From Buxus sempervirens (lineage: Eukaryota > Streptophyta > Magnoliopsida > Buxales > Buxaceae), in contig OX387184.1 of assembly GCA_947561395.2 (NCBI GenBank), positions 20,485,687 through 20,549,686 of the forward strand: DNA of 64,000 bases, in the 5' to 3' direction. Under the pieces are notes generated by a model, which was not told where the DNA came from, did no database searches, and saw nothing but the letters and a program-made list of their open reading frames with translations. Positions 1 to 53,005 of this stretch are shown here, piece after piece (position 1 is the first letter of the stretch; the number at the start of each line of letters is the position of its first letter). A program made the position numbers and the translations under genes.

Positions 1-207
1 CCGGCCCGCAGAACCTTCATCCGGACTCCGATTCCAGCAAACTCACTTGCGTTGGACTCGTGTCGGGATTCTCCATCCAATGGGATAAATCAAGGTGGCC
101 CATTATCACTTGGTCAAAAGGTCAACTTTTTGTCCCTTATGGTTTGACTTTTTATTTAGGGTTTGCATTTCCGGCTCTTTCGGAAGCGCAAAAATAAGGT
201 GCTTACA
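1..207 (-). mobile_element. LTR fragment, TGTAAGC family, cut by window edge
   Basis: Read on the minus strand, this piece starts TGTAAGCACC and matches the 5' ends of the long LTRs at 9,984 and 31,412, including the stretch that runs to the words for 'ACTCGTGTCGGGATTC'. It is the first 207 bases of such an LTR; the rest lies beyond the left window edge. The family assignment to Ty3/gypsy (perhaps Tat/Ogre) is inference from its relatives. Confidence 0.75.
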
Positions 208-1094: not shown

Positions 1095-2986
1095 TGTGAG
1101 ATATGGGAAAAATCACCGGGATGATTTCCCCTCCGCCAACACACGGGCTCAACGTAAAAATGGGAGAGTCACCACCATTCAGAATTATAGGGTGAGAATG
1201 GACACCAAAAGATTAAAGATTAGCAAAAATAGCTAAAATGCAAATTCTAGAGTAAAAATAACCCTACTTGAAAATCAAATCCAGAGATGGGTAAGGAGAT
1301 TAGATTATGAACGAGGGAAGGTGTTAGGCACCCCCATTCACCCACACAAGGTGGTTGCCAAGTGTTGTTCATGCTAAGAAATAAGAAAGCTTGCTACAAA
1401 TCATTAAAACTTGGAAAAAGGACACATGTATGATATCTTCACATGAAAATCCAAATGAATTCCAGATCCTCTTTTTATGTCAATATCATTTTTGGAATAT
1501 CACAAAAAGATGGAAACCAAAACAAAAGTTGCACAAAACCAAGTTGAGGCAAATCCGGAATTTGGTAAAAAGTACTGCCATTTGTCTTGAAATCATTCAA
1601 ATCCAATTTTAAATTGAACCAAACCAAAACCATTTGAAAGATTAGGGTAAACAATAGTCTCATGCAAAATTTCAATTAAATCCGGTTGAAATTCTAAGAA
1701 TTATGGCTCTTCTAAAGTTGTTGCCGGAGAAAATCAAAAGTAACAAGTAGACAAGTTTGGAAAATCACCTAGAAAAATCGGCTTCATAAAAATCAATGAA
1801 ATTTGGTATGAATAAAGTCTGTATGGCCATCTTTCAAAAGAAACTAGCCTCATATAAAAACTCATTCGGATGTGCCTTGGGTGACTTCCTGAACAGGCCC
1901 CGAGGATCACAGATTAACCCAGAAAAGTGCCGTGGAGCAGTTCTGAGTAGATCTGCTCTCCACGACACAATATAAATCAAAAAATTATGAAACCAATTGA
2001 ATTTAAAAATAGACTCATAAGGGAGTTCCTAGAAACAAAAAGCACTCAAGTCGGATTTAAAACCAGCAGATGACGCCCATTCGAAGTGATAGGTTCAACA
2101 GTTTGACCTGAAATGACGTCTCAACTTCGGCAGAATGGTGTCAAAAATCTGCTCCATAGAAATTAATGAAATTTGGTAGGCATAAACTAGACAGCCTCAC
2201 CTTTCCCATGGTTCTAGAGTCACTCCAAAATTCATCCAGATGATGAATTTATGAGTCTCCGAAGTTGGGGTACAGTTGCTGTCAAGTAAAGCCTCTTTTG
2301 GAGAAAAACAATTCACAACTGTGACAAAGTGTGTGCAATTCGTGCAAGATGAATCCAAATCCTTTAAAAATAATTTAAAGACATTCCAGAATTGATTGAG
2401 GCCATTTATTTCAGATTTATCACAACGAATGTAATAAATCCCCAAATGTGAGCCAATCCCGCCAAAATCATGCTATGTATGTGCAAGTGTGAAAAATCAT
2501 TCAAGAACAATATAACAACATAGCATGCATTCATATTCATCAAAATAAGGTTCTAAAACAACCTAGGGTTCCGTTCCATTATCGTTTCCCTTAATTCTCT
2601 CTCCCCGTTAAACATGGTTCTTCAAGATAATCTTGGGGTACTTTGAATATGAAACGGTTTTCAATCATTCAAAAGGCTTATGCAAGATAGGTTCTAGCAC
2701 TAGGGTCAATCCCTAGTCTCGTTTCTCCTAGATCCCGCCTTCACGTTTTACGGCTAGGGGGAGTCTTGAGATACTTTGAGCCAGGGAAGGTTTTCATACA
2801 CATAGAAGGCCTTATTCTACAGAAAGGTAGAAGAAGAGATCTAGATCTAGAATATAAAATAAAGAAAATAAAGAAGAGGTTTGAGGCTTACCTGGGGTTC
2901 TGGAAGCAATCCGGCAGCGGTTCCCTTCTTCACTCGGAGCTCTTGGATCTCCAACTTCTTGGCCATTTGCTTAAGGAGGAGCCTCC

Positions 2987-2994
2987 TATTTATA
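2987..2994 (-). promoter_or_regulatory. TATA box of the solo LTR
   Basis: TATAAATA on the minus strand in the context GCCTATAAATAGGAGGC. The same context (CCTATAAATAGAG) recurs in the related LTRs at 18,266 and 35,043, which supports it as the LTR promoter. Confidence 0.6.
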
Positions 2995-3160
2995 GGCAAA
3001 GGCTAAGGTTAGGGTTTGCATGATGGTAGACACAAAATAATGTCTAGAGCCCACCAACCTTAACCCTAAGGCCATTTCCGAGATTTCCCCTCATTTAATG
3101 AAGGACATGATGGTAAAAAGTGAAAACTCTCGGAAAACCCTAATTTTGAGCAAAACTTAT

Positions 3161-3303
3161 GTATCCGGCATATCAGGCCGGATACACAAGGGCCTTAATG
3201 TATCCGGCATATGATGCCGGATACACTGAAGTCTGCTTGTATCCGGCATATTCCATCGGATATGAAGAAAGACACTTGTATCCGACCTGAGTTGCCGGAT
3301 ACA
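3161..3303. repeat. 39-bp-period array of GTATCCGGC palindromes
   Basis: Four imperfect 25-base palindromes (GTATCCGGC ... GCCGGATAC) start at 3161, 3200, 3239 and 3278. The spacing is exactly 39 bases each time, with unrelated 14-base spacers. The array lies about 170 bases upstream of the LTR's TATA box in the direction of transcription. Confidence 0.9.
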
Positions 3304-3343
3304 AGGAAAAAAGCCTTTTTTCCAAATTTTAACACAGGCAATA

Positions 3344-3425
3344 CTTATTTACATGTAATATCGTTTAAGTAAATGTCCTCGTATTTTTTAATCTCCATTT
3401 ACTTAAGATATTACATGTAAATAAG
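3344..3425. repeat. 82-base near-perfect hairpin followed by a C-run
   Basis: CTTATTTACATGTAATATCG on the left pairs with CATTTACTTAAGATATTACATG... on the right to make a stem of about 30 bp with a loop near 16 bases. A run of 13 C follows within ten bases. The same hairpin plus C-run recurs at 52,471, and a decayed version at 25,654. Confidence 0.85.
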
Positions 3426-3879
3426 CAAACACCCCCCCCCCCCCACTTGAATCCATTAAAAATAGTTCCAGAACCAAATTCCAAGTGAATAAAAAGTCAA
3501 CTTTCCAGTTCTAGGCAAAATTCCGATTTTTCAGGTCTGGAAAAAAGGTTCAATATGTTAAAACCAAGGTATTCGCCAAGATTTAAAATCTCAAAAAATT
3601 CTTTTATGCAATAACATGGCTAAAAACCTGATTACCGGGAAAAATTATCTTGAAATCTGGCTTTAAAAAATATTTCATTTTCTGGGGTCAAAAGTCAACA
3701 AAATTCAACCGGAAAAAGTTTGACTTTGCACAAAATATTGAATTCAGGCCTTTTCCTTTATGGTTTTGGATTCAAATGGGTTAAGTATCTCAAACCCAAT
3801 GCAAAGAATTGAAAATTCCCATAAAATATTTCTCTCCTTCAAGATTTATAAAAAATCGTGCAATTTTGGGGTGTCTACA

Positions 3880-4024: not shown

Positions 4025-4511
4025 TGTAGACACCCCAAATTGCACTTCAATATAAGAGAACAGTCAAAAGGAATTTTAAATGTTTTATTTGAGCTTTGGC
4101 ATGTGTCAAAAACTCAAAAATACTCAAAAAGGGTGCTAACCGCATTGAATGTACGGTTTTTGAGAATTTGGTCTCAACCACCCTATGTATGCGGTTGTAA
4201 CTGCACATACAGGGCGGTTCCAATTCAGTTACGCTCCTTATGATTGCTGTCGACGTGGCTCAATGGCCAAAGCTTCTAGAAGCCACGTGGCAACTCACGC
4301 AAGAAGCATGAACCTCAACCGTCCTATGTCTGCGGTCGCAACCGCATACACAGGGCGGTTGAGACCAAATTCTCAAAAACCATAAATTCAGTGCGGTTAG
4401 CACCCTTTTTGAGTATTTTTGAGTTTTTGACACATGCCAAAGCTCAAATAAAACATTTAAAATTCCTTTTGACTGTTCTCTCATATTGAAGTGCAATTTG
4501 GGGTGTCTACA
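4025..4511. repeat. LTR-derived foldback (head-to-head inverted repeat)
   Basis: The element starts TGTAGACACCCCAAATTGCA and ends with the reverse complement of that word. Arms of about 205 bases (4025-4231 and 4306-4511) agree at roughly nine positions in ten, around a 75-base centre that itself folds (GACGTGGC...GCCACGTGG). The arms are the 5' end of a TGTAGACACCCC-family LTR up to and including the AACCG/CGGTT palindromes also found in the LTR at 50,141. No target-site duplication was found. The two open frames in the arms mirror each other and are not proteins. Confidence 0.85.
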
Positions 4512-5598: not shown

Positions 5599-6046
5599 TA
5601 GGAGTGCAACTCGGGTCGGTACGGTTCAGGTTGAAGTCAACCCAAGATCAAACCGAAAATATTTTACAATCAACCCAAATTGAACCGAACATAATTGAAA
5701 ACCAAAAATATAAAACCGTAAACCGAATCGAAAATAAAAAACCCAAACCAAACCAAACCAAATTACATGAGATCAATTTAGTTCAGTTTGGTTTGGGTTA
5801 GATCAATATATGCTTGTGCTAAAATAAAGGTATCTTTTGTAATATCCTAAGTTTAAAGTAAACTTTCAAAGTTTAATATATATTATATTATATAAATATA
5901 ATATATTAGGTCAGTTCGGTTCGGTTCGGTTTAACAAAGCATCCAACTCAAAACCAAACCGAATTAGTTCGGTTTAAAGATTTTTAGACCAAAACCGAAT
6001 CGAAGTCAGTTTGAATCGGTTTTTACCGGGCCGAGTTGCACCCCGT
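5599..6046. mobile_element. hAT-like MITE with CCGAACCG-rich ends
   Basis: Terminal inverted repeats read TAGGAGTGCAACTCGGGTCG on the left and (reversed) GGGGTGCAACTCGGCCCGG on the right. Inner parts are full of GGTTCGG/CCGAACC words. The TIR style suits hAT-derived MITEs. No convincing 8-base target-site duplication was found, so the right border is approximate. A truncated right end of the same element lies in the duplicated segment at 53,520. Confidence 0.6.
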
Positions 6047-9978: not shown

Positions 9979-10555
9979 ATCTGTGTAAGCAGCTCATTTT
10001 TGCGCTCCCCAAAAGAGCCGGAAATGCAAAACCCGGCTAAAAAGTCAAACCCTGAGGGGTCGAAATTTGACCTTTTGATCAAGTGATGATTGGCCACCTT
10101 GATTTATCTTAATGGATAGAGAATCCCGACACGAGTCCAACGCAACTGAGTTTGCTGGAATCGGAGTTCGGATAAAGGTTCCGTGGGCTGGTCAAACTTG
10201 AGGGTGAGCCGAAAGTTGACTTTTCCTCGAACCCCGTGCCAAGTACTTAGCCCTAGGTCATTGGATAGAGGGCTCCGATACGAGTCTAACGCAATTGAGT
10301 TTGCTCAAATCGAAGTTCGGATGAAGGAGATATGAGCTGTCAAAGTTTCCGAGCAGCAAAACCGGAAACTGCACACGTGGCGCAGGAACTGACCACGTGG
10401 CAACCAACGCAGCAAAATATCTCGGGGACAAAATCTTAAATATCCAAAAATCTCAGGGACTAAACCAAAATTCGCAGGGGGCAATCCGTAGATATCCAAA
10501 AGTGTCAAATCGGTCGAATCGGTCAAGGAGGGGCAAATCCGTAATTTTTCGATTT

Positions 10556-10800
10556 GTATCCGACCAGATATGCCGGATACACTTGCTCCTCTTCATATCC
10601 GGACTCAAATGTCGGATACAAAGATTTGCTCGGTGAGATTCGCGCCGATCGCCCAACAAATTCGCGGCGACATTTAATTTTCGAATGATTATGTTTTGTA
10701 TCCGGCATTCAATGCCGGATACAAAGAGGCACTTGTGTAACCGGCCATAGAGGCCGGCTATGAAGCAGACTTAGTGTATCCGGCCTGAGTTGCCGGATAC
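10556..10800. repeat. GTATCCGGC palindrome array, 39-bp period
   Basis: Five 25-base imperfect palindromes start at 10556, 10595, 10698, 10737 and 10776. Within each run the step is exactly 39 bases. Word and step equal those of the array at 3,161 although the two LTRs have different termini. The last unit ends 11 bases before the TATA box. Confidence 0.9.
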
Positions 10801-10811
10801 ATTAAGTTGGC

Positions 10812-10819
10812 CTATAAAA
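10812..10819 (+). promoter_or_regulatory. TATA box of the 9,984 LTR
   Basis: CCTATAAAAGG directly after the palindrome array. The related LTR at 31,412 has CTATAAAAGCC at the matching place on its own sense strand (about 33,510). Confidence 0.6.
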
Positions 10820-12782
10820 GGCCAACAGCAGCCCAGTTTCGGGGGTTGGCTTCTTTTGGTTGTCCTTCAGCTCCCTTCTCCCACTTGATCCCCTCAGAAT
10901 CCCACCTCTTTCAACTCCCTCAGCCCTCTGCCACCTCCCAAGACGAATCAAAATCACCTCCACCACTCTTTTCCTCCTTCTTCCTCCCTTGCTCCCTACC
11001 AATAGAAGGAGCCATTACTGCAGCCGGCCTGAGGGGGAGCTTCCAGCTGGTGTGTTGGTGCAAAGAGGTCATACACCTCCACAGAAAGAACCAAGAATCA
11101 CTAGGTAAGGTTCCTCGTTGTGTGATATTCATCATATATTAAACTCGAATTTTTCCGCTAATGTTCTTAGTCTTGTCTTCCTTCTTGTCATGTAAAACCC
11201 CGAATTTTCCTAAAATAAAGTAAATTAAATAAGCCTAAATATTGAGAAAATAAGTATTAATCCAAGTACATTATATGGTTAAGATTGATGAGAATTTTTG
11301 GAAAAAGATTCAAAGGTTAAGTATGGAATTCCAAGGAAAGGGTATTTTAGTCATTTCCCAATTAGCCAAATTAAGATATTGATTAAATAAATAATTATTA
11401 GACTTAAAATATTTAACTAGACTTAAATTGGGTTAGGTTTGGTTTTAAATAGCAAATTATTGCTTAAAAGTAGGAAAAAGGGTATATTGGTGATTATGGT
11501 TGATAAGGAGCCTTAAGTTTGAGGATAAGAGGTAGCTTTAGGGTGTTTTAGTAATATTTTAAAATAAGAAATTTAATTAGCACGAAAATAAATTAAAATA
11601 AATCCTTCTCTTATATAAGATACTTAAAAGAGGAATTAGAAGGAGGGTTAAGATGGGGAGGTTTCCAATTAAGAGTGAGAAGTCTAATTAGAAGGTTTCC
11701 TAAACCTAATAGGATTTTCTAATTAAGAGAGCTTATAAAAGGAGAAGTCTAGGAAAGGTTTAGGGTTTTTAGCAAGTCCAAAAATAAGGAGGAAAGAGGG
11801 GAAAATTCGTGCTTGGGCTTGGGAGAAAAAGAGAGGAGAGAAAAGAGAGGGAAGAAAGGAAAAAGGGAAGTGCTGCAGAGGTCCGACTAGCAGACTTTGA
11901 GCGACGATCCCCGGAGATCTAGTCGTTGGATCGTCATGAAATTTGGAGGTTATGCTCTATACATGAGATACTTAAATCTGAACGGTGGAGATTGGATTTG
12001 GATGAGTCTAAAATGGTGCAAATTAACCCAGAAGTTGGTGGAAAATCGGATTTTGGAAGAAAAAGGAGTTGCAGGGATGGCCGACTAATCAACTTCGAAC
12101 TGTGAGATAGAAAGATCCAACCGTTGGAATGGGCTGAAATGTTAGGGTTTTGTTCTACTCATGGAGGACTTCAAACTGAACGGTGGAGATCAAAATTTGA
12201 GAAGTTTAGAGGGGTCCGCTCGAGCTCCAAAAACGTGCACAAAAGATGTTCGGAAAAATGTGGGTTCATCAAAAAGGCAAATAGCAAACACTTGAAACTG
12301 GAGGAATTGCATATTTTCTTGTGTTTTTGATGATTGATCGTATTGGTTCTTAAATTTGATTTCATTGGAAAAGTTAGATGTTTATAAAGTTTCGATTTGG
12401 TGATTTGAATCTTTTTTTTTTGAAGCAAGAAAAATGTTATTCATGGGTGGGTTGAATTAGAAAGAAACCCTAGTTAAGTTTTAATTACCAGGATGTGAGT
12501 GGCACTGTTTTAAAACCTGGTTTATGCTATTCGTAGATTTGGTTTCAATGAATGCATGGTTATCGAATGAATTATTCACTGGTTTCTGGGCGAAGACAGT
12601 CCGAAGGGTTTCCGTACAACAAATTGGGGATAATTGAAAAGTATGTTAGATTAAATTCAAAATAGGTTTGAATGTGTTCTGGGGGTATTAGGAGACTAGA
12701 GAAGTAGTTACAGACTGGAAAAATTCGGCCAGAGTTGAAGATTTGGATTTAACAGAGACTTGAAAAACGCAGTAGGTATCTG

Positions 12783-13043
12783 CCCACTTGGCGCCCACGT
12801 GCGCCCACTTCGGGAAGTAGGCGCATAGAAAAATTGACCTGGCGCCGAGCTCGCGCCCACTTGGCGCTCAGCTCGCGCCCACTTAGATTTCTCGCGCTTT
12901 TCTCGCGCCTATCCCACGCCCTTCTCGCGCCGAGCTCGCGCCCACTTACCATCGAGTGAGCGCATACCCTAGTTTTTAATAATATATGATCCGCTCACTC
13001 GGCGCTCACCTGGCGCTCACTTCAGGAAGTGAGCGCATAGTCC
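12783..13043. repeat. GGCGC/GCGCC word array inside the 11,191 LTR
   Basis: Repeated TTGGCGCCCAC, CTCGCGCCCACTT, GGCGCTCAC and GAAGTGAGCGCATA words form many short inverted pairs over about 260 bases, in contrast with the AT-rich sequence on both sides. The dyad word GGTGAGCGCATAC recurs in the LTR at 31,412 (about 33,560). Confidence 0.75.
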
Positions 13044-13624
13044 ATTTTCTTGCTGAATCTCATAATTTAGTAAACCAATGGGGATTTGGATGCTAGAAGG
13101 TCTTTGATCACTTAGCAAAGTATTTGTTTACAACATTAGAGACAAAAATTACTTATGAGAACATTGAAGATAGATCCTGGAATTTCGTAAGAGCTTCTAA
13201 GGTAGATGTAGGGCAATATTTAGGTGATGTTCGGGATACCCAACACTGGGGCTTTTATTTTAGTTCTTTTGGATTATACACTGTACTGTACTTGATTGAG
13301 ATTTATTAAACCCTGTTTTCTTGATGGCAAGTTCTGAATTATATTGCAAAGATTATTTACTTCTTTACTTGTGAGGAATTATTTGTTCTGGTTGGAACAC
13401 TTGTAAGACGATGTTCTGGTTGGAACACTTGTGAAGAATTACTGTTCTGGTTGGAACAACTTGTGATGTGCATACTGAATGCAGTGTTTTATCGGCTATT
13501 TATCGGTTTTTGTTTAGCTTGTCCTGGATCCAGAGTCTAAGCTTAGTAATGTGATGTATATGCTTTGTTGGTGTAATGGCATGGCCATGGAGTGTTGCCA
13601 CGACCGGTGTAGAGCAGCCAGAAA

Positions 13625-13745
13625 CCCTGAGTAGGCCTGGTTGTCAGTGCCGATACCCGGAGTAGGCCGGCATTGGATGACAATACCCTGAGTAGGCCGT
13701 CATTTCAGAGTGTCCGATACCCTGAGTAGGCCGGAACTGTGTACA
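13625..13745. repeat. CCCTGAGTAGGCC short tandem words
   Basis: GTAGGCC follows ACCCTGA/ACCCGGA four times at steps of about 30-34 bases inside the same LTR. Confidence 0.7.
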
Positions 13746-16700
13746 TGGAGGTGTGGAGGTCGCTCTGGCATGATTGATTAACCAAGCTAAACAACTACAT
13801 GACATTGACCATTCGATGTTTTATCGGTATTGTTATTGAAATATGAGTTGATAATAATAATGGGATTTGATTTAAACTTTGGAATTATCCTTGTTAATGT
13901 GGTTGGTTTAATCGTACACCTCATGACTTATTTTGTAAAAATGGACTGATTTCATGCATGCACCTTGCTACTTGTTGAGATTTATTCTCACTCCAGTTTC
14001 TCCCATTTTTCAGGTACTCTTGGTGAGGACGTCAAGTTGTGGGCTAGTTGTAGCTGGGTAGTCTATATAGGTGTAGGATTGCTCATATAATTGAAACCCT
14101 TTTTATATTATAATTGTTGATTAATAAAGAGAATTTGAATTCCAGTTTCCGCTTTTACTCTGATTATAAAGTTAGAAAAAGTTTTAAATTATTCCATATT
14201 TTAGTTGCTTTTGTTGCTTATCATAACACCTCGGGTTTTGGGAATTGGACCCGGAACCGGGGCGTTACTGGCATGGGCCTATTTCCATGAAATTTTCTGC
14301 ATGCATATGATTCTTTTTCACGGCATGAAAGCCACCACAGGTAAGAAGTCCACGTTAGGTTTTTTTAGGGGAGCATGGGAGTCCACCTTTTACACTTTTT
14401 TTGTTAGTATTTTTAGTTACTGTTTTGGGTTGCATCTTCAGCAGTAGTTTAGTCCGTTAAAAGGGAGCATGTTCCCTCTAAATTTTCATCCAATGTATCC
14501 CCATGACACCCCCCCAATTCCCTTCTTCATTTTCTCCCTTTTCTCGCTTGTTTTTATAGTTTTCCTGGATGTTTTCTCCGCTGGCCATATCTCTTTGGTC
14601 TTGCTATTCTTGGCCCTAGTTGCATATATGCCTAGTTCTAAGTTGGATTTTCTGTTTGTGCATATGATTGCTGTCCTTAGTGTTCTTCTTATGTCATGTT
14701 GCTATTTCTAAGAGTCCATACAAGTTCCTTTTTTTACCACCCATGGGTTGCACGTGCCAATGCATGCCTTCTCTTCTTTTGGGGTTACAGAAATGTTGTA
14801 ATAGGTAATAAGCATGCCCCCATCCCTCTTTCCACTTGCTGTTTTACCTGTCTAAGCATGAATCTTTCCCTTTCTTTAAGTGATAATTTGTTGCTTACTG
14901 ATCTTCATAGCATGTAATAAGCCCTTGTTATGCTCCCTTCATTGTGACCAAGATGAGTGGCTGCTGGAGACAGCAGCCAACTCTCACTGTTTGCTGCTGT
15001 CCCAGCAGGTTTGGAAATCCAGGACCAAGTCCAGCCCATCAACCCTTCCATGCATGTTTCCCTTTCCTAAGTCCAACGTATTCCCACCCACCGTTGCATG
15101 CTAAACCCCCGTTTGTTTGATGCTGTAACTTCACCTACAGCAAGTTCTTTCTAGCATGACTTCTTGATGGTGCATGTTTGTTTTATCGGATCATTGTGAA
15201 CGTTCGCCCCATGTTTACTTGCTGTTTTAGGGATATGATAAACATTATTCCATTGCCATCACAACCTCCTTGCAAAGGCTCATTTAAGTTGCTGCTATCC
15301 CTTGCTTTGTGACATATTATGTTGTGATTGTTTGGTATGACATGAGAACCTAGGCATAGGCTTGGAATTCCCTTTTGATTGTGGATTAGAGTGCCCAGGG
15401 TAGGGGTTTCATAGCCCTTACAATGCTGCTAGAGTGGTTGGGAAAGGCAGGGAGGAGCAGTAGCCCCATGCCCTCCCTCTTTCCCCTTTGTCCTTGATTG
15501 AGAAACCCCAAAGGAAAAAAAGAAGCCAAGTGAGGCTTCTCCCTTGAACCTAAACCAATGGGGGCCCACCCAGGGGCCCACACAAGTCGTAGAAGGCCCT
15601 AGGAAGCCCCTGGAAACCACCCCAATGGCTAGAATTCGGAAAAAGGCTATTTTAATGTGATCCAGCAACTCAGACCGGATCACCTAGGGGTTGTGTGTAT
15701 CCGACAACTAAGGCCGGATACATGATAAAAATGCCATTTTCATGTTCTCTTTGCCCCTTGCCGAATTTTCATATTGTTTTTAACAAAACTAGACGAACCA
15801 ACAGGGTTTCCGGGTCATCCGGAAGCCCAACTTGGGACCTGGGCGACAGGCCCAACTTGGAGCATTTGCGGGCCTTCCAACGGGGCCCACCAAGCCCGAT
15901 GAATCCAAAGCATGCAAATGAATAAGTTGAGTAAAATGAACAAATTGAATCGGGCGGGCCAAACCCAATGCGGCCCACCCGAACCTTATGACGTGTGGAG
16001 TAATGTTTAAATTGCGTGGTTTGGCCGAGACCCCGGGCTAGGGCCTATCGGGCCCGCCGAAGCCCTTTAACCGAACCAAGTTAGGGTGCAAGCCCTAGAC
16101 TTCAAAGAACTGGGCTTTCAAGCCCAAACCAGGATCACAGGCCCCAAGCCCAGTGACCAGTCCATTCTTGGAAAAGCTAAATAAAACAAATCCAAAACAC
16201 CCTTGGCAACCATCATGGGGGCCCACTCAAGGCCCGCAAACCAATGCAGACTCACTTATAACATGAAAATCACTAAGCCTCCAACTTGAATAAATTAAGT
16301 AAAATCAATTCACTACACCTAAGCCAAAAGGGCCTCCTAGGCTTAGGCAGAAGCCCACCAGGGGCACATGGGCTTACCCAAGCCCACCAAGGACATTGTG
16401 GGCCTTCCAACGGGGCCCACCCGATCCGACTCAGATCATCTAAGTAAGCAAGATAAAAGCAATTAAAGGGACCCACACCACTCAGGAGGTCCCGACAAAC
16501 TTAAACAAATGGCATGCTGGATTAGGAATCGGGTGAGACCAGAGTAAACTAACTCAAACCAGGGAACCCACGGGACCCGTCATCCGACGGGGTGGACTGG
16601 GGTGTTTACGGACTTCCCCAGACCACAACCGAGACCCCAACTTAGAATCTCAAGCCGCAAACCCAAGCCCAAAATAGACTAACTTAGGCACCCAGGTGTC

Positions 16701-16770
16701 CGCCTGCACCCCATCAGGCGATGGCGACTCCGACTCTCCTGTGCCGCGTTTCCGACGCGCGCACAATCTG

Positions 16771-17219: not shown

Positions 17220-18369
17220 TCTTCCAGTAACCTTCAACTGACCATCCTGAAGCCTTAACATCAACAAGATCCTATGCGGTGGCAATCCTTCTTCTTTAAG
17301 CAAGAAGACCAGCTAAGGCAGAGCTACTCTTTTGTCACAACCTTCGTAAACATATCTGCAGGATTCTTACTTGTATGAATCTTTTCTATCTTGAAAGTTC
17401 CTCTCTCCAGATGAGAACGTATGAAGTGGTACTTCACATCAATATGCTTGGTCCTTGCATGAAATGCAGAGTTCTTTGCCAAGTGCATAGCACTTTGTTT
17501 ATCACTGTATAACTTGCAAATTTTCTACTCCATTCCTAACTCCTCTAGGAATTTTTGTAGCCAAATCATCTCCTTATTGGCTTCTGTAGTTGCTACATAT
17601 TTTGCTTCTATGGTAGATAAAGCAACAAGTTTCTACAACCTGGATACCCATGGAACAGCTCCACTTCCAAGAGTAAATATGTAGCCAATAGTACTCTTCC
17701 TTTTATTAATATCACCTGCCATGTCTGAATCAACATATCCCTACAAACAAAACTCTGATCCTCTATAGTGTAGAACATCATCCATTGTTCCCTTCAGATA
17801 CCTCAGTATCCACTTCACTACTTGCCAATGTTCTTTGCCTGGACTGTCCATATATCTACTTACAACTCCCACTGCGTGAGCAATGTCTGGCCTAGCGACA
17901 ATCATGGCATACATGAGACTCCCTATGGCTGAAGCATAAGGTACTCTTTCCATTACTTCCTTCTCTTCCATTATCTTTGGTGAATGTTGTCTTGACAACT
18001 TCTTACTTTCTGCCAAAGGGGTGCTAGTGGGCTTAGCACTCTCTATGTTGAACCTCTTCAACACCTTTGAGATATATTCTTGTTGTGATAATTTCAGCAA
18101 ACATTTCTTCCTATCTCTATAATTCTCATTCCAAGAATCTGTCTGGCAACACCCAAGTCCTTCATTGAGAATTCCTATGAAAATTGCTTTTTCAATCTTT
18201 CAATTTTAGCCATGTTAGATCCTGCAACTAACATATCATCCACATACAAAAACAATATAATATACTGTAGACACCCCAAATTGCACTACAAAATGAGAAA
18301 ATAATGAAAACATTAATTGGAATTTAAAACAGGCCAAAAATGCATGAAAATCAATAATTCAAGCCTGGA

Positions 18370-18472
18370 CCGTATTGCATCCACGGGCTAAGCGCGCCCG
18401 AATTTTATATACGGGCACGCAGCACCCGTAATACATATACGGACACCATTGGACCGTAAAGCATTTACGGGC
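18370..18472. repeat. 28-bp-period array of CCGTA/TACGG palindromes
   Basis: Four 19-base imperfect palindromes start at 18370, 18398, 18426 and 18454, exactly 28 bases apart with 9-base spacers. The centres vary (ATTGCATCC, TTTTATA and so on) while the arms are kept. The array lies about 200 bases upstream of TATAAATA at 18,673. Confidence 0.9.
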
Positions 18473-18672
18473 ACATCAGACTCGTGCGAGTTCTGTTCTT
18501 CTCTCGATTTCTGAGCCTTATCTTTAGTCCAATATCCCTTTAAATGAGCGAATTACATATTTTATTCGTGCGAAATATCTTTGTGGATAAAGGATGGGCA
18601 TGATCTTGTGTTTAACTCAAACTGAAACTCTATCTTGCCAAACCTTGGACCAACCATACCCCTGGGTTTGCC

Positions 18673-18680
18673 TATAAATA
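18673..18680 (+). promoter_or_regulatory. TATA box of the 18,266 LTR
   Basis: TATAAATA in GCCTATAAATAGAGAGCC, conserved in the sister LTR at 35,452. Confidence 0.6.
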
Positions 18681-21600
18681 GAGAGCCTTTCCTCAAGCAA
18701 AAGGCCACGAAAATTTAAAGTCCAAGGAGCTCCAAGAGAAGAGAGGAACCCCTGCTGCTCTACTTGCTCAATCCAGGTAAGTCCCTTTTCCCTTTTATTT
18801 TCTGTCTTCAATTCTAGAAGTAATAGGATTTTCTCCTTTTTTTGTAGAATAAGGCCATCTTTTGTACTTGTATTCCTAAACTTGCCACTAAGTACCTCAA
18901 GAGTCTCTCTAGCCGTAAAACGTGCAGAGAGAGCTAGGGGAAAAGAGAACAGGTGGATCCCTAGAATAGAACCCCATATATGTTTTTCTTCTTTTTTCTA
19001 GAGTAAAGCCTTTGATTGTGTTTGTATCACCAAACCTATCTCCAAGTACCTCAAGAATCCTCTCTAGCCGTAAAACGTGAAGAGAGAGCTAGGGGAAAAG
19101 AGAACAGGTGGATCCGTAGGGTAGACCCCCATGTGCTCTAATTTGTGAGATGTGGCTGTTTTGAATATCTTGATCATGTTTTAATGGTTTTTATGATGAA
19201 TCTGAATGAATAACATGAATCCATGATGTTTATAGCATGAGATCCCCACTTTTTTATAAAATTTGGATTTTTCCCACTTTTGCACCTACAGCACTGTTTT
19301 CGTGATTTTCGTGATTTTAGGCTAATATCCTAGATTTGTCATGATCAGTATGATAGATCTGGATTCAAAAGCCTGAAAATAAATTCTAGGGTTTTATGAT
19401 GTGGTTTTTGAATTGTTTTTCATTATTGAGAGAAGACCCTACGGTCTAAATTCTCCCCTTTTGATGTTCTTCATCAATGTGGGTATTTTTTGTTTTGATT
19501 TTTTGATTTAATGTGAAATTTGGGCTATATCTATGTCCTAGACTGTTCAAGTTCAATTGTGCAATATTTTATAAAAATCATATTTTTCTAGATTTCTAGA
19601 ATTTGACTTGAAACCAGATTTTTGGATTTTTCACTTTCAATTGATTTTATTGGATTTTATCTCAATTTTATTTTGATCATGAAACCCTAGGAATGGTATG
19701 ATCATATTTGAAAGTTCTGGATCAATCAGACTATTCATATGAAAAAACCATACAATTTTCTTTTTTATGTGATTTTTCATGAATTTTATAGCAAGCCTTT
19801 TTTCTTTGTAAAACATGAACAATACCTGACAACCACCTTGTGTGGATGAATAGGGGTGCCTAACACCTTCCCCTGTTCATAACCTAATCCCCCTACTCAT
19901 CTCTGGTTGTTTTTTTTAGGAGGGTTATTTTCACCCTAAAATTGCCTTTTGTGCTTATTTAATATCTTGGTGTCCATTCACACCTAAATTGAATGGTGGC
20001 GACTCTTTGTTTTATTTAATCCCGCGTGATGATAGAGAAGTCATTGGATTCTTGATTTTTTCCCATGTCTCACATATACGAATCACCCAAAAATTTAATG
20101 TAGCAGCAATGATTTGAGTTGCAACGAATGTACCCATTGCGTGCCATAAAGTTATCTAACTTCTTATACCATTGACGTGGGGCTTGTTTCAATCCATATA
20201 AACTCTTCTTGAGTTTACAAACCAGTCCCTCATTGCCTTTTTCTTCATATCCTTGAGGATGCTGCATGTAAATATCTTCCTCTAAATCCCCATGGAGGAA
20301 TGCAGTCTTCACATCTAGCTACTCTAGATGAAGATCCTGTGTTGCCACAATACTAAGCACAACTTTGATAGTTGAAAGCTTTACCATTGGGCTAAAGATC
20401 TCTGTGAAGTCAATTCTAGCCTCCTGTTGGAAGCCTTTCACCACAAGTCTGGCCTTGTATCTCTTACTTCCATCATGTTCATTTTCAGCCTATAAACCCA
20501 CTTATTCTATAATGCTTTCTTGCCTTTAGGTAATTCCACCAAATCCCATGTGTTGTTGGATTCCAATGATCTCATCTCGTCATCCATAGCCTTCTCCCAC
20601 TTAACCTTTGTCTCAACCTGCAATGCTTCATCGTAACATTCAAGTTCACCATTGTCAGACAACAATAAATAAGAAAATGAAGGAGAATATCTGGATGGAG
20701 GCCTGGTAACCCTGCTCGATCTCCTAACTGTGGTAGGAGGTGATTGTGGATCAACATGCTGCACATCTGATTCTGACACAACTTCTTCTTGCTGTACTTG
20801 AGTGTTCTTGGATGGAGTATCATCCAACTCTGCAAACTCAGGCTCTAGTTTTTCTTACTTTTCTACCTGTTTAGCCATGTCTTTGAACATAACATTCTCA
20901 TTAAAAATAACATTCCTAATTCTAATGACTTTTCTATTTTCATGATCCAAAAGACAATATCCAAACTCATTTACTCCATACCCAATAAAATTTCATATCT
21001 TAGATTTAGCATCAAGTTTGGATCTATTTTCTTTTTTAATGTACACATAACAAGTGCAACCAAAAGTTCTAAGATGAGATAGATTTACCTCCTTTCTAGT
21101 CCAAACTTCCTCTGACAATCTACAATCCAGTGATGTAGATGGTCCTCTATTGATCAAATAAGCAGCGGTATTGACTGCATCTGCCCAAACCTACTTAGGT
21201 AGACCGGCATTGATTCTCATGCTTCTTACTCATTCTGCTGGAGTCATGTTCATTCTCTCTGCTACACCGTTCTGTTGTGGTGTCCATGGAACCGTTTTCT
21301 CTCTTCTGATTCCATTCTGAGCACAATACTCCTCAAACTCTTTGCTGCAGTATTCACCTCCATTATCTGACCTCAAGCACTTTAACTTTGATTCTGTCTC
21401 ATTTTCAACTAGAGCTTTCCACTTCTTAAACACATCAAATACATCAGATTTATGTTTCAAGAAATAAACCCATAATTTTCTAGTTGAATCATCAATGAAA
21501 GTAATATAATAAAAAGAGCCACCAACTGAAAGTACCTGTGCTGGTCCCCATACATTTGTATGAACTAGCTCCAGCCTGTTTGCTTTAGGATTCCTTCTTG

Positions 21601-31411: not shown

Positions 31412-34363
31412 TGTGCGCACCCGATTTTGGTCGCACGACGAGGCGCACGCGTAATGACGCGTGCCTCAGGGTTTGTTTGGAGTCGCCACTGCCTGATGGG
31501 GTGCAGGCAAACACCTGGGTGCCTAAGTTTTTCTACTAAGGCTTTTGGTCTGCGGCTTTGAGATTCTAAGTAGGGGCTCAGTTGCGGTCTGAGGAAGTCC
31601 GTAGACACCCCAGTCCACCCCGTCAAGTGACGGGTCCCATAGGTTTCCCTGGTTTGAGTCAACTTTGGTCTCTCACTCACCCGATTCCTATTCCAGCATG
31701 CAACTTTGATTAAGTCTGGCGGGACCGCCAAAGTGGTGTGGGTCCCTTTACTTGATTTTATCTTTTTAATTAAGATGATCTGGGCCTGGTGGGGTGGGCC
31801 CCGTTGGAAGGTCCACGGTATCCCTTGGTGGGCCAAGTGTGGCCCGCATGTTCCTTGGTGGGCCAAGTATGGCCCTTTGGACTTTGGCTCACTTTGAATT
31901 GATTTTATTTTAGAGTTCAAGTTGGATTAGTTAGGTGGATTTCATGCCAAAAGTGGGCCGGGATTGCTTTGTGGGCCCTTGAGTGGGCCCCACAAATGGT
32001 TGCCAAGTGATTTTGATTTTATCTTTCTTATCTGTGTCAAAATGGGCCAAGCATTGGGCTTGGGGCCCTTTACCTGGGCTTGGGCTTGAAAGCCCAAGGC
32101 TTCCTGAATTAGGGTTTGGAAACCCTAAGTTGGTCGGGTTCATGGGCTTAGTGGGCCCGATAGGCCCTACCCGTGGTCTCGGCCAAACCACATCCTACTT
32201 TAATCATGCATGGCCCAATTAGGGCTTGGGTGGGCCTCAAGTGGTCTGGCCCACTCAAATCTTTTATTATCTTAGTTAAGCAAAATGAATTGGTCGGGCT
32301 TGGTGGGCCCCGTTGGAAGGCCCACTGGAAACCAAGTTGGATCAAGGGTCCAAGTCCCATGTTGGGTTTCCGGGTGACCCGGAAACCCTATTGGTTTGTC
32401 CGGTTCGGAAATGGCATTAACATTTAGCAATAATCATAGAAAAAACACAAGATGAACACTTTGTCAGAAAAGAAACTGGCTCAATGTGCTGGGTCCAAGG
32501 GGAGGTACCCGGGGGCCCTGTGGGCGAAGCGAAGCCCATGGGGTGGGGTACCTCCCCGTACCAGTACAGTAAAGGGCATTTTCGGAAATTTTCAAAAATA
32601 TAGCATTTCGGCAGGCTTTTAGGGGTATGCGCCGACCTCGGGCGCTAGGCGCGAGGTCGGCGCGGGCCGGGCGGACCAAAAAACCCGCGAAGCGCGAAAA
32701 GCGCTCGTGCGAGATTCGCGCGAGCTTCGCGCGAGGTTCGCGCGAGCTTCGCGCGAGGTTCACGCGAGGTTCGCGCGAGCTTCGCGCGAGGTTCACGCGA
32801 GGTTCACGCGAAGTCTTCGCGCGAGCTTCGCGCGAGCCTCGCGGACCCTCGATGCTCTTGGTTTTCATTCAATCTCCCTTCCTTAGCTGATTTTAAGCTC
32901 TGTAATCGTTTTTTTTGGCTCTGTAAGCCCTCCCAGGGCTTGGACCACTCCCCAGAAGACACTTTAACTTTTATTGGAATTGATCTAACCTAAGTTGTGA
33001 GGGTCAACCCTCTCTGCAAACCTACAAATCCGAACACCCAAACACCCAAACACTAACAGAACATACAAGGGAAGGGAACTGGGGGCTTTATCGGGATACA
33101 ACAGAGAGGGAGAACTCATAGGGGGAACATGCTCCCCCTTCGAATCAATCAAAACAGAACATAAATAGCATGTTGAGATGGAAAACTTGCTCACTTTCTA
33201 CATGTTAAAACAATAACTGAGAGAGAGAATCACCTTGGTTCCAAACCTTTGCAAAGCAGGCCGGAGGTTCCCTGGAGCTCACAAGCTGCTGCGGAAGGCT
33301 CCTTCTTCTCACACCAAGAGCACGGCCTCCTTCGGATTTGACGAGGAAGAAGAGGAAGGGAGGGGACCTGTGTGTATGTTCTTTTTCTTCAAAATCCCGA
33401 GCCCAAAAAAACAATGCCGAAACCAAAAAAAAAGTCCAGAACCCTGGAACTCTCCCACCAAAATTTCCGAACCCCCACCAAAATTTTTGAACCCTTGGAA
33501 ATGAAACCCTGCGCGGCTTTTATAGAAGAGTACAGAGGGTATCCGCCGAGTTTGGCGCTCACCTCAAGGTGAGCGCATACCCCCTGCCACATTCGCGCAA
33601 GCGACCTAATCATTTCAAAATAATAAATGCCGCCGCTCGTTTGTTTTAAAAATCTGAAAATTAGGATATGGTCCCTAGGATATTTAGGTTTAATATTATT
33701 TTATTCAGATATTTTCAAATACTTTCAGATTGGTCCCTGGGATATTTTGAATGTTTGGATATTTATGGATTTGATCCCCGAGATATTTTTCTGCGCAACT
33801 CGCCACGTGTGCAGCTTTTTGCCACGTGCGCAGTTCGCCGGTTTTGCTGCTCGGGAACTTCGCCAGCTCATATTTTCTTCACCCGGGCTCCGATCTGGGC
33901 AAACTCAGTGGCGTTAGAATCGTATCGGAGCTCTCTATCCCATGACCTAGGGGTAGGCCTCCGGATCGGATTTTACCAGAAAGTCAACTTTTGGCTTCGC
34001 CCAAGTTTGACCGCCCGCAGAACCTTCATCCGGACTCCGATTCCTGCAAACTCAGTTGTGCTGGAATCGTGTCGAGATTCTCTATCCAATGATATAAACC
34101 AAGGCCTCTAGATCGGATTTTAGCAGAAAGTCAACTTTTGGCTCTGCCCAAGTTTGACCGCCCACAGAACCTTCCCCCGGACTCCGATTCCTGCAAACTC
34201 AGTTGCGCTGGAATCGTGTCGAGATTCTCTATCCAATGATATAAAGCAAGGCCTCTAAATATCACTTAATCAAAAATTCAACTTTTTGTCCCTTCGGGGT
34301 TTGACTTTCTACCAGGGTTTTCATTTTTAGCAATTTCAGGGGTGCAAAAATAAGGTGCTTACA
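31412..34363 (-). mobile_element. solo LTR, TGTAAGC/GTGCGCACA family, 2.95 kb, in the gypsy integrase
   Basis: On the minus strand it runs TGTAAGCACC to GTGCGCACA, with the duplication TACAC at both sides (31407-31411, 34364-34368). It holds a GCGCGAG(C/G)TTC array, a GGTGAGCGC dyad just upstream of the minus-strand TATA box CTATAAAAGCC, and near its 5' end a tandem duplication of about 147 bases (33,958-34,255). The GGAGTCGCC word near its 3' end matches the 9,984 copy. It must be younger than the gypsy element. Confidence 0.88.
32640..32850. repeat. GCGCGAGCTTC / GCGCGAGGTTC tandem array
   Basis: Alternating GCGCGAGCTTC and GCGCGAGGTTC/ACGCGAGGTTC units of about 10-11 bases over some 150 bases, preceded by a GCGCCGACCTCGGGCGC dyad. 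The block is far richer in CpG than its surroundings. The two open frames over it are repeat products. Confidence 0.8.
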
Positions 34364-35148
34364 TACACACCACTTCCTATTCCTAAGTCCCCATGGGAAG
34401 ATGTTAGTATGGATTTTGTGGTGGGTTTGCCAAAGACTCAAAGGAACAAAGATTAAGTTATGGTAGTTGTTGATCGTTACTCAAAGATGGCTCATTTTGT
34501 TCCATGTAGCAAGACTCTTGATGCCTCTCATGTAGCTGATCTTTATTTTCGAGAGATAGTCAAGCTTCATGGTATTCCAAGGACAATCACTTCAGATCGA
34601 GACACCAAATTCATGAGCCATTTTTGGCACACACTTTGGAGGAAACTTGGTACTAATCTTCACTTTAGTTCAACTTGTCATCCTCAAAGTGATGGTCAAA
34701 CCGAGGTGGTCAACAGAAGTTTGGGAAATTTGTTAAGAAGTTATGTGGGAAAAAATATTCGGCAATGGGATCTCTTGCTTGCACAAGCTGAGTTTGGTTA
34801 TAATCGATCTACTAGTCAAACTACTGGCCATAGTCCATTTGAAGTTGTATATGGACAAAATCCCATTAGCCCATTGGATTTAGCACCACTCCCTACTACT
34901 CATCATTTTAGTGGAGACGCAGAGGAAAGGGTGAAGTACATCAAAAAGTTACATGAACAGGTTCGTGAGCATATTCTCAAGCAAACTGAAAAGTATAAAA
35001 AGCAAGCCAACAAGCATCGAAAACCAACAGCTTTCAAAGAGGTGTAGACACCCCAAATTGCACTACAAAATGAGAAAATAATTGAAAACATGTAATTGGG
35101 ATTTGAAACAGGTCAAAAAAGTGTAAAATCTGGCCAAACTAGTCATGA

Positions 35149-35251
35149 CCATATTTTGTTTACGGTCTGGTCATGCCTGTAGTTGATATACGGGCACGGT
35201 GTGCCCGTATTAATAATACGGGCAGGGCGTAACCGTAATATATATACGGGC
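35149..35251. repeat. 28-bp-period array of CCGTA/TACGG palindromes
   Basis: Four 19-base units start at 35149, 35177, 35205 and 35233, again exactly 28 bases apart. Outer units are less perfect than inner ones. TATAAATA follows at 35,452, the same distance as in the sister LTR. Confidence 0.9.
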
Positions 35252-35451
35252 ACGGGGGTTTTGTGCGAATTTTGCCTTTTTCGATTTCTGAGCCTTATCT
35301 GCATCCAAATATCTCTCTATGAATTTCGAATTATCTTATTTATCCTTTCGAATTATCCTATTTGGCAATGGATTGGCATTATCCCTGTTTTCAATTCAAT
35401 CTGGAAGATCTCGGTATATCCCTCTAGACCAACCATACCCCTAGGTTTGCC

Positions 35452-35459
35452 TATAAATA
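35452..35459 (+). promoter_or_regulatory. TATA box of the 35,043 LTR
   Basis: TATAAATA in GCCTATAAATAGAGGGCC, aligned with the box at 18,673. Confidence 0.6.
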
Positions 35460-37085
35460 GAGGGCCTCTCCTCAAGCAAAAGGCCACGAAATTTGAAGTC
35501 TAAGGAGCTCCATGTGAAGAGAGGAATCCCTGCTACTCTGCTTGCTCAATCCAGGTAAGTCCCTTTTCCCTTTTATTTTCTGTCTTCAATTCTAGAGATA
35601 ATCAGATCTTCTCCATTGCTGTAGAATAAGGCCTGGTTTATACTTGTATTCCTAAACCTGCCTCTAAGTACCTCAAGAATACTCTCTAGCCGTAAAAGGT
35701 GAAGAGAGAGCTAGGGGAAAGGGGAACAGGTAAATCCCTAGAATAGAACCCCATAATCTGTTTTTCTCCTTTTTTCTAGAATAAAGCCTTTGATTGGAGT
35801 TTGTATACCCAAACCTGTCTCTAAGTACCTCAAGAATCCTCTCTAGCCGTAAAACGTGAAGAGAGAGCTAGGGGAAAAGAGAACAGGTGGATCCGTAAGG
35901 TAGACCCCCATGTGCTCTAATCTGTGAGATATGGCTGCTTTGAATATCCTGTTCATGTTTTAATGGTTTTATTTTGAATCTGAATGAATCTCATGAATCC
36001 ATGATGTTTATAGCATGAGATCCCCACTTTTTTCTAAAATTTGGATTTTTCACACCTTTGCACCTACAGCACTGTTTTTGTGATATTAGGCTAAGATCTT
36101 GGATCTATCATGATCTATGTGATAGATCTGGATTCAGAAGCCTAAAAGTAACTTCTAGGGTTTCATGATGTGGTTTTTGAGTCATTTTTCATTTTTGAGA
36201 GAAGACCCTACAGTCTAAGTTCTCCCCTTTTGATGTTCTTCATCAACGTGGGTATTTTTTGTTTTGATTTCTTGATCTAATGTGAAATATGGGCTATATC
36301 TATATCCTGGATTGTTCAAGTTCAATTCTGCGATATTTTATAAAAATCATATTTTTCTAGATTTCCAGAATTTAACTTAAAGCCAGATTTTTTAAGTTTT
36401 CACTTTAGATTGGTTTTATTTGATTTTATCTCAATTTTATTTTAATCATGAAACCCTAGGAATGGTATGATCATATTTGAAAGTTCTGAATCAATCAGGC
36501 TGTTCGTATGAAAAGACCATACACTTTTGTCTTTTTGTGATTTTTATGATTTTTGTAGCAAACCTTCTTTATTCTTAACATGAACAATGCCTGGCAACCA
36601 CCTGGTGTGGATGAATAGGGGTGCTTAACACCTTCCCCTATTCATAACCTAATCCCCTTACCCATCTCTGGTTGTTTTTTTAATAGGGTTATTTTTACTC
36701 TAAATTTGCCTTTTTGTGGTTATTTGATATTTTGGTGTCCATTCACACCTAAACAGAATGGTGGCGACTCTTTGTTTTTAACCAATCCCGTGTGATGATC
36801 AGGAAGTCATTGAATTGATTTTTCCATGTCTCACAAGAGGGTGATTTGGCATGGATTCATCTGCGAAAAGAACGCTTTCCAGGAGGGCGTCATGCCAAGC
36901 TCATGCCTAAAGCTGATGGACCATTCAAGGTGCTTAGACGCATTGGGGAGAATACTTACAAGATTGAGCTACCAGGTGATTATGGTGTTTCAGCAACTTT
37001 CAATGTCTCTGATCTTTCCCCATACTATGAAGAAGATGAGGATCAAGACTCGAGGACGAGTCTTTTCCAACTAGCTAGGGGAGTA

Positions 37086-52159: not shown

Positions 52160-52426
52160 AACCGTATACTCAGTGCGGTTTCTACAGAACCGTCCTATAT
52201 GTGCGGTTTCTATGCAAATTCATCTCAACCGCACATACAGGGCGGTTCCAATTCAGTTATGCTCGTCATGATTGCTGTCGACGTGTCTCAACAGCCGAAG
52301 CTTCCGGAAGCCACGTGGCAGCTCACGCAACAAGCATGAACATCAACCGTGCTGTGTATGCGGTTGCAACCGTAAATACAGGACGGTTGAGACCAAATTC
52401 TCAAAAACCGCACATATACTACGGTC
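52160..52426. repeat. AACCG/CGGTT palindrome array
   Basis: Six imperfect 21-base palindromes start at 52160, 52188, 52227, 52345, 52368 and 52406 (steps 28, 39, 118, 23, 38). Steps of 38 and 23 also separate the same words in the foldback at 4,138-4,199. A GACGTG...CACGTGG dyad sits in the long gap. Confidence 0.85.
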
Positions 52427-52470
52427 AGCACATTTTTGGTTGGTTTTGAGCCTTAGCTGCACAGGCCAGG

Positions 52471-52552
52471 CTTATTTACATATAATATCGTTTAAGTAAA
52501 TGTCCTCGTATTTTTTAATCTCCATTTACTTAAGATATTACATGTAAATAAG
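52471..52552. repeat. 82-base hairpin, second copy, with C-run
   Basis: Same length and nearly the same sequence as the hairpin at 3,344; a 7-C run follows. One T in the left arm differs, within an otherwise matched stem. Confidence 0.85.
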
Positions 52553-53005
52553 CAAACACCCCCCCATTTGAATCCATTAAAAATATTTCCAGACCCAAAT
52601 TCCAAGTGAATAAAAAGTCAACTTTCCAGTTCCAGGCTAAATTCCGGTTTTTCAGGTCCGGTAAAAAGATTCAACATGTTGATACAAAGGTATTTATCAA
52701 GATTAAAAATCTCAAAAAATTCATTTATGCAATAACATTGCTAAAAACCTAATTACGGGGAAAAATTATCTTCAAATCTTGCTTTAAAAAATATTTCATT
52801 TTCTGGGGTCAAAAGTCAACAAAATTCAACCCAAAAAAGTTTGACTTTGCATAAAATATTGAATTTGGGCCTTTTCCTTTGCGGCTTTGGATTCAAATGG
52901 GTTAAGGATCTCAAACCCAATGCTAAGAATTGAAATTCCCAATAAAATATTTCTCTCCTTCAAGATTTATCAAAAATCGTGCAATTTTGGGGTGTCTACA
53001 CTATA

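Follow-up and report, generated by a model that had tools for sequence, protein, structure and literature searches.

How two long terminal repeats (LTRs) with different ends and bodies come to carry the same palindromic word at the same 39-bp step is the question raised by a stretch of 64,000 nucleotides of the Buxus sempervirens genome, hereafter the window, which was analysed at its whole length. An initial annotation had described five dyads in the LTR that starts at 9,984 (LTR B), with steps of exactly 39 bp within each of two runs and the last dyad ending 11 bases before the TATA box, and had proposed that a regulatory module is shared or exchanged with the LTR that starts at 1,095 (LTR A). 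A dyad scan bore out this description. The dyads start at 10556, 10595, 10698, 10737 and 10776, with spacings between starts of 39 bp in the first run, 103 bp between the runs, and 39 and 39 bp in the second, and they show 1, 3, 0, 3 and 0 mismatches, respectively, to GTATCCGGC-N7-GCCGGATAC (out of 18), 2 of the 5 in these promoter-side runs being perfect; the last one ends at 10800 and is followed by 11 bases and then by CTATAAAAG, at 10812. When one mismatch at most was allowed, 19 such dyads were found in the window against 3.85 expected, a number that 0 of 100 shuffles reached. Besides the five dyads, there is a run at 15658/15697 in the same LTR, and LTRs C, E and F and a foldback bear arrays with other words, all of which the initial annotation had overlooked (Table 1).

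Table 1. LTRs, dyad arrays and related features identified in the window
Feature	Position	Strand	Remarks
LTR A (family I)	1095..3879	-	no target duplication seen
LTR B (family II), solo	9984..16765	+	duplication ATCTG; nested element inserted at about 11191-14268
LTR C (family I)	18266..20074	+	duplication TATAC; CCCGTA-type CCG-N11-CGG dyads at 18370-18470, step 28
LTR F (family I)	35043..36835	+	duplication CCTCT; identity with C 84%; two CCCGTA-type dyads (35205, 35233), step 28
LTR E (family I)	50141..53000	-	duplication TATAG; six AACCG-type dyads at 52162-52424
LTR G (family II)	31412..34363	-	duplication GTGTA; 74-77% identical to B on either side; without TATCCG array
Family II LTR 5' end, fragment	1..207	-	
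Foldback formed by two head-to-head LTR 5' ends	4025..4511		arms of 195 nt, 93% complementary; AACCG-type dyads
Array 1 of LTR B, first run	10556..10619	+	two dyads, step 39
Array 1 of LTR B, second run	10698..10800	+	three dyads at 39-bp steps; linkers related to array A linkers
TATA box CTATAAAAG	10812..10820	+	11 bases past the last dyad
Array 2 of LTR B	15658..15721	+	downstream of the TATA box; two dyads (15658, degenerate, and 15697), step 39
Array A in LTR A	3161..3302	-	four TATCCG dyads at 39-bp steps; TATA follows 166 nt downstream in the sense direction

The LTRs of the window fall into two families according to their termini, family I starting with TGTAGACACC and ending with CTCACA (A, C, F and E) and family II starting with TGTAAGCA and ending with GCGCACA (B, G and the fragment at 1-207). 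All of them are solo or lack a visible internal region. TG...CA ends and a 5-bp target duplication were found for B, C, E, F and G, which we regard as solo LTRs because of these duplications and of the lack of an internal region, while A shows no duplication; in A-type elements, ACTGGCGACT lies after the LTR end (4 loci). An E-type LTR copy in L027 matches the foldback in its 5' end and array. Two further repeats were observed in the window: stretches 5987-6567 and 53534-54120, outside the LTRs and near A and E, are 88% identical, perhaps as a result of a local duplication, and pieces of a direct repeat at 39455-40198 and 44763-45683, ca. 5 kb apart, are 96-99% identical and are probably the two LTRs of an unrelated young element.

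That A and B differ in termini and body, as initially annotated, was confirmed by blastn (E<=1e-3), which among the best 14 matches per pair detected no similarity beyond the arrays and ca. 28 bp upstream of array A. The homologous flanks around the array that would place both LTRs in a single family, and make exchange unnecessary, were therefore not found. The ca. 28 bp upstream of array A resemble the upstream flank of array 2 of LTR B (3 of 1000 shuffles, with the dyads masked). TATA lies 155-168 nt downstream of the A-type arrays read, except in L042, where there is an insertion between them, and 12 nt downstream in 3 of 4 B-type arrays, none having been found in L026.

A scan of the window for CCG-Nk-CGG with k from 0 to 30 rendered 29 occurrences at k=11 against ca. 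1.5 expected (30 Markov shuffles, maximum 4), and at most 8 at every other k. This geometry is common to three words, TATCCG, AACCG and CCCG (CCCGTA), and 25 of the 29 occurrences lie within arrays, where TATCCG accounts for 4 in A and 6 in B, AACCG for 6 in E and 3 in the foldback, and CCCGTA for 4 in C and 2 in F. For the U3 of each of A, B, C, E and F, and likewise for the foldback, none of 2000 shuffles attained the count observed at k=11, whereas the excess was not significant in the downstream part of B (325 of 2000 shuffles) or in G (300 of 2000). The other 56.6 kb, beyond the tested pieces of U3 and LTR, hold 2 occurrences against 1.26 expected. The remaining four are those at 10349, its homologue at 33838 (in G), 23097 and 50174; the last two, being outside arrays, are not claimed as sites. 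In G at 32705-32843 and in the nested element at 12778-13040, other CG-rich tandem words could be seen by eye (CTCGCGCGAA-like; GGCGCTCAC-like), and CCG-N11-CGG was not found in either stretch. The observed/expected ratio of CpG is 0.96-1.47 in the arrays against 0.33-0.52 in the parts of LTRs A, C and E outside arrays, and it is also 1.0 in B upstream of the array; the raised CpG of the arrays would fit selection or protection from methylation, either one.

Genome-wide searches covered 676.5 Mb in 247 contigs, a perfect palindrome scoring on both strands in the counts. The dyad is present in thousands of copies: GTATCCGRC-N7-GCCGGATAC was found 7344 times in the forward and 7378 times in the reverse orientation, with 0 matches for the reversed-pattern control, and GTATCCGGC-N{0,30}-GCCGGATAC rendered 6487 matches, with 0 for the reversed control. 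Among the matches listed, which are the first ones on contig C1, the spacer was N7 in 100 of 100 rows, equivalent to 50 TATCCGGC places, that is, CCG-N11-CGG. CCCGTA-N{0,24}-TACGGG was matched 12680 times against 1586 for the control, the spacer again being N7 (CCG-N11-CGG) in 100 of 100 rows, or 50 places, among the matches listed, and CCGTA-N7-TACGG before TATAAA was found 1751/1795 times against 5/4. For the third word, AACCG-N11-CGGTT-N{4,30}-TATAAA rendered 917/986 matches against 17/17 for the control; when the spacer within the dyad was left free from 0 to 24 the figures were 1168/1201 against 306/304, so that, by subtraction, the other 24 spacers account for 251/215 against 289/287, as expected by chance.

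The loci sampled were the first-listed places of one contig, mostly picked for an exact dyad. Within the first 20 of them, 67 of the 75 steps under 300 bp are of exactly 39 bp. In a sample of 36 loci plus the window, with overlaps removed, the pitch between TATCCG neighbours is 39 bp in 54 of 54 cases and that between CCCG neighbours 28 bp in 13 of 14, while AACCG neighbours show several pitches, namely 23 (13 cases), 38 (10), 39 (6) and 28 (3), together 32 of 35; where two neighbours differ in word class, the distance is 39 or 28 bp. The pitch is tied to the word and not to the LTR family: pitch 28 is found in CCCGTA arrays of family I and of family II relatives, and pitch 39 in TATCCG arrays of both families and before an open reading frame (ORF) at L038. 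The difference between both pitches is 11 bp, about one helical turn.

Conservation was evaluated in 15 arrays (14 LTR arrays and the promoter array of L038) with array A as the reference. The core CCG/CGG was changed in 14 of 360 cases (3.9%) and the outer arms GTAT/ATAC in 15 of 477 (3.1%); figures were 66 of 240 (27.5%) for the inner GC, 65 of 420 for N7 and 142 of 625 (22.7%) for the linker. Substitutions in the half-sites are about six-fold scarcer than those in the linkers (29/837 vs 142/625). The loci of this sample had been found by means of an exact dyad that fixes three of the four inner bases, so that the variation of the inner bases is not explained by the choice of loci. Because the inner GC is free to vary, the unit has to be redefined: the dyads of the initial annotation are real, but the conserved unit is GTATCCG-N11-CGGATAC and not GTATCCGGC-N7-GCCGGATAC, and, judging from the pattern of substitutions, this would be the functional unit in A and B, with an unconstrained inner GC. 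In the array of B (3 copies), 1 of 90 core positions, 38 of 165 in N11 and 83 of 427 in linker plus flank were changed; the corresponding figures for the array of E (4 copies) were 8 of 123, 47 of 223 and 92 of 602, and in the CCCG array of C, for which 1 copy only was available, 1 of 18 core and 7 of 22 outer bases were changed. On the other hand, the single dyad of B at 10349 (33838 in G) is not claimed as a site, since its core was changed in 7 of 30 cases; because it fits the geometry and yet is not conserved, geometry alone is no proof of function. The ratio of gap openings to mismatches was 15:341 in array A against 352:3708 in its flanks (p 0.0025), a weak difference, the ratio of the 5' module being equal to that of the array.

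Beyond the dyads themselves, the linkers of array A and of the promoter array of B are related: with the dyads masked, their alignment has a score of 40, which 0 of 1000 shuffles reached (maximum 34). In an all-against-all comparison of the linkers of 15 arrays, with 300 shuffles for each pair, four copies of A and four of the B-type promoter array made up 16 pairs, in which z was 8.7 for the two window copies and 1.9 to 6.9 for the other 15, the weakest being reached by 23 of 300 shuffles. The linkers of the promoters at L037 and L038, which precede the ORFs described below, gave z values of 1.8 to 6.4 with the B promoter arrays and of 2.1 to 3.6 with A. Array 2 pairs, in which the dyads are the same, serve as a control for this test: no relation could be demonstrated between the linkers of array 2 and those of A or of the B promoter array (z -1.4 to 2.3), with the exception that array 2 of L036 and the promoter array of L038 gave a z of 6.8. 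Because the bodies of LTRs A and B are unrelated at the blastn level and yet the linkers of their arrays are related, the cassette was probably exchanged between LTR families, in agreement with the proposal of the initial annotation. The sharing is wider than that annotation had stated, as it involves three words, two LTR families and the promoters of "plant mobile domain" (PMD) ORFs.

Exchange is also well supported by the combinations in which LTR parts and arrays appear. A and E have a 5' module that is 91% identical over 545 bp, different arrays, and downstream parts that are only 62-65% identical; A is 70-71% identical to C and F over 300-450 bp. In three other A-type LTRs, identity to A in the 5' module vs the downstream part is 97.2% vs 80-82% (L023), 95.6% vs 82-83% (L038) and 96.9% vs 83-85% (L040). 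L024 combines the 5' module and the TATCCG array with a downstream part that is mostly C-like, and two different 5' modules are found among E-type LTRs. On both sides of the stretch where B carries its array, B and G are 74-77% identical. Family I was found with TATCCG, AACCG and CCCGTA arrays, and all three words are also present in family II together with its 68-75% identical relatives (B-type; L051 and L052; L059, L060 and L064). In B and L051 a single word is used in both arrays of the LTR, only one array was found in L052, and in the CCCGTA-type relatives L059, L060 and L064 the second array is ACCG or mixed ACCG/CCCG.

Arrays also precede PMD ORFs, which are antisense wherever their orientation could be judged. 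Promoters of these ORFs were read at five loci (L037, L038, L057, L058 and L065). One A-type element has its ends at L036 and L037. Its LTRs share 97.06% identity (67 mismatches in 2316) and its target duplication is AGAGT; the 5' LTR is followed by ACTGGCGACTC, and a purine tract precedes the 3' LTR. At L037, two TATCCG dyads, one of them with a C-to-T change in the core, lie on the other strand ca. 580 bp before the 3' LTR, and TATAAA follows 8 nt past them and then PMD-like ORFs, whose Pfam matches (E 0.0018 and 0.0041) do not reach the curated cut-off. In the E-type loci L057 and L058, three AACCG dyads at 39/38 bp are found ca. 350 bp ahead of the LTR that we regard as the 3' LTR, followed by CATATAA and by antisense PMD ORFs (E 9.8e-11 and 2.2e-15, above the cut-off); no such array was found at the flank of the opposite LTR of either pair, about 21 kb off. 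The PMD ORF of L057, the only E-type one compared, is 49-52% identical to the A-type ORFs. A further AACCG array, with steps of 28, 41 and 28, was observed at 50-163 of L057, past the far end of the E-type antisense ORFs. L043, considered as another antisense promoter, was rejected, as it consists of two A LTRs head to head.

At L038 and L065, DUF7745/PMD ORFs lie behind arrays of different words, namely four TATCCG-type dyads at 39 bp in L038 and CCCGTA-type dyads at 28 bp in L065; L038, and only this locus, bears an integrase and an RVT_3-type RNase H (RVT_3 E 8.7e-19) on the strand opposite to the PMD ORF. The two ORFs are identical in 181 of 218 residues (83%), and the DNA upstream of their promoters is 70% identical over about 120 bp (E 5.8e-4), for which the simplest reading would be the replacement of a cassette in place. 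Within the A-type and E-type elements read, the LTR and the antisense promoter have the same word, and homologous PMD ORFs of different elements have different words.

We consider it likely that the arrays are exchangeable cassettes of putative binding sites for a dimeric factor, with half-sites CCG and CGG exactly 11 bp apart. A convergent origin, in which one host factor would have selected the same site in unrelated LTRs without any exchange of DNA, could by repeated selection also yield two LTR families with three words, and array 2 of family II, which has the word and pitch of A mostly without related linkers, would agree with it. It seems unlikely, however, in view of the linker relationship between array A and the promoter array of B (0/1000; z 8.7 for the window copies), of the 91% identical 5' module that A and E have next to different arrays, and of L038 and L065, where homologous ORFs and weakly homologous upstream DNA surround different cassettes. 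It could also be the case that the array was retained from a common ancestor of both LTR families while the rest diverged past recognition, which would be compatible with both families belonging to one broad Ty3/gypsy lineage, as they may, and with the dyad core being better conserved than its surroundings. But since the linkers are hardly constrained (22.7% changed), their similarity should have faded along with the LTR bodies, and sister LTRs (A and E; family II relatives) bear different words, so that we regard retention as quite improbable.

A different kind of function, in which the dyads would act as RNA or DNA stem-loops or as precursors of small RNAs and not as protein sites, is suggested by their being inverted repeats that could pair, and arrays in U3 would fall in the 3' end of the genomic RNA. 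Nevertheless, the inner GC/GC that would extend the stem is the least conserved part (27.5% changed), the spacer is identical in all 100 rows (50 places) among the matches listed for each of the words TATCCG and CCCGTA, and the pitch of the TATCCG arrays is rigid, all of which leaves little room for such a function. The arrays are indeed tandem, and plant LTR elements often contain tandem repeats, as reported in the available text of PMC11963269, but that they are neutral satellite-like repeats that chance to sit in U3 is hardly credible when substitutions avoid the half-sites ca. six-fold relative to the linkers (29/837 vs 142/625) and different words have the N11 geometry in common.

If the arrays are indeed exchangeable cassettes of binding sites, a dimeric DNA-binding factor would recognise two half-sites, 5'-CCG...CGG-3', at the exact distance of 11 bp, and the bases outside CCG (TAT, AA or C) would constitute the word of the cassette and presumably its specificity. 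A dimer on DNA is suggested because the 11-bp spacing is fixed across words, the half-sites are conserved and the linkers are free. The pitch (39 for TATCCG, 28 for CCCG) would move together with the word, and sites might be arrayed for cooperativity. A regulatory role of the arrays is suggested by their position, conservation and rigid spacing, and an activator or an anti-silencing factor would fit because they precede TATA in the LTR and in the antisense promoter; with cassettes upstream of TATA in the LTRs and upstream of the antisense PMD ORFs, one factor could activate the genomic RNA and the antisense gene together. Swaps between LTR families and between homologous promoters might have taken place through template switching in reverse transcription or through gene conversion.

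Regarding the protein that would read the sites, the presence of the same word in the LTR and the antisense promoter, and of different words in different elements, favours one encoded by the element. The PMD protein itself is disfavoured as the reader by the 83% identity of the L038 and L065 ORFs, which have different words, though few residues could suffice for the change, and a family of host factors with one dimer geometry would explain the data equally well. It is conceivable, though we hold this rather doubtful, that Tat-like retrotransposons possess a lock-and-key system in which a protein family reading CCG-N11-CGG plus a word controls the LTR and the antisense PMD gene, and in which elements swap whole cassettes, word and pitch, between families, the factor being perhaps encoded by the element in a VANC- or Tat-like circuit. 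A candidate for the factor, only as a lead, may be ZmLBD2, an LBD protein of maize whose binding to GCGGCG repeats in yeast is reported in the available text of PMC9612921.

The nearest known kind of array is that of the repeated-motif (RM) boxes of Sireviruses (Ty1/copia) described by Bousios et al. in 2010, which, according to the available part of PMC2829016, are palindromic, CG-rich, situated a short distance ahead of TATA in the upstream LTR half and associated with CpG islands, with extra copies before an additional gene (ENV) and a word that varies between elements. The arrays of Buxus resemble them in being palindromic, in their raised CpG, in forming a cluster before TATA in the upstream half of the LTR and in having extra copies before another ORF, which here is a PMD ORF and in Sireviruses ENV. 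However, the core of the RM boxes is CGG...CCG with short spacers in all but one element (table 3 of PMC2829016, as available), whereas that of the arrays is CCG-N11-CGG with a fixed 11 bp; furthermore, unlike in the RM boxes as described there, TATCCG and CCCG each have a fixed pitch, and LTR families that look like Ty3/gypsy have words in common. We found no CGG-CCG core in these arrays, as the inner bases that give it in TATCCGGC words are unconserved and the AACCG and CCCGTA words lack that reading. Because of the opposite polarity and the short spacers of the RM boxes, membership in that class is not claimed.

Antisense additional ORFs between pol and the 3' LTR are known in Grande, RIRE2 and Retand, and that of Grande has its own promoter and a suggested regulatory role (PMC7264820 and PMC11963269, in their available parts). 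An antisense ORF just upstream of the 3' LTR is likewise present here, in the A-type element L036/L037 and in E-type L057 and L058; the Retand ORFs are reported to be mainly TRP28 and those found here are PMD/DUF7745, and a dyad code common to the LTR and the antisense promoter is not mentioned in the available text of those two papers. Among the non-canonical domains of plant Gypsy consensuses, PMD is the commonest according to the available part of PMC9289625; the present elements have this domain too, and promoter arrays are not discussed in that part. Retand-like antisense ORFs and the targets of VANC may be regarded, by analogy, as functional parallels. VANC acts in VANDALs, which are DNA transposons. 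As stated in the available part of PMC5735166, the anti-silencing targets of VANC are often tandem repeats that vary between related elements, and a joint evolution of VANC proteins and targets has been proposed; that system has a known reading protein, while PMD ORFs were found here and the reader is only putative. The string CCG-N11-CGG, in the spellings tried, had no match among 5.39 million papers, the 30 papers listed out of 71 that matched strings of LTR termini or of words look unrelated by title, and no description of this dyad code was found in the literature searched, which covers few subscription papers. In collections of viral contigs and of genome contigs, one dyad match (a single dyad in a contig of 60% GC) and 16 stretches of prokaryotes, respectively, were found, none of the 17 resembling the window (blastn E<=1e-3), so that they were rejected as chance matches; the viral collection had no match for two LTR termini.

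The proteins that switch on abundant plant retrotransposons are mostly unknown, and a site that has a fixed geometry and occurs in thousands of copies, under three natural words, would be a ready bait for the factor, the natural swaps being built-in controls. The arrays also bear on the evolution of promoters in mobile elements, which may proceed through the exchange of cassettes between unrelated LTRs.

Some additional dyads and arrays were observed at the sampled loci. Dyads resembling AGATCCG-N11-CGGATCT, possibly another word, are located at 3341 and 3883 of L042, 1188 of L057 and 3730 of L058, and an array without recognised context is located at 2281-2359 of L039. Finally, a class AACCGAAAATTAATTTCGGTT...CTATAAA, with N11 and other inner bases, was observed on contig C1 at about 22 to 34 Mb and may belong to another element family.
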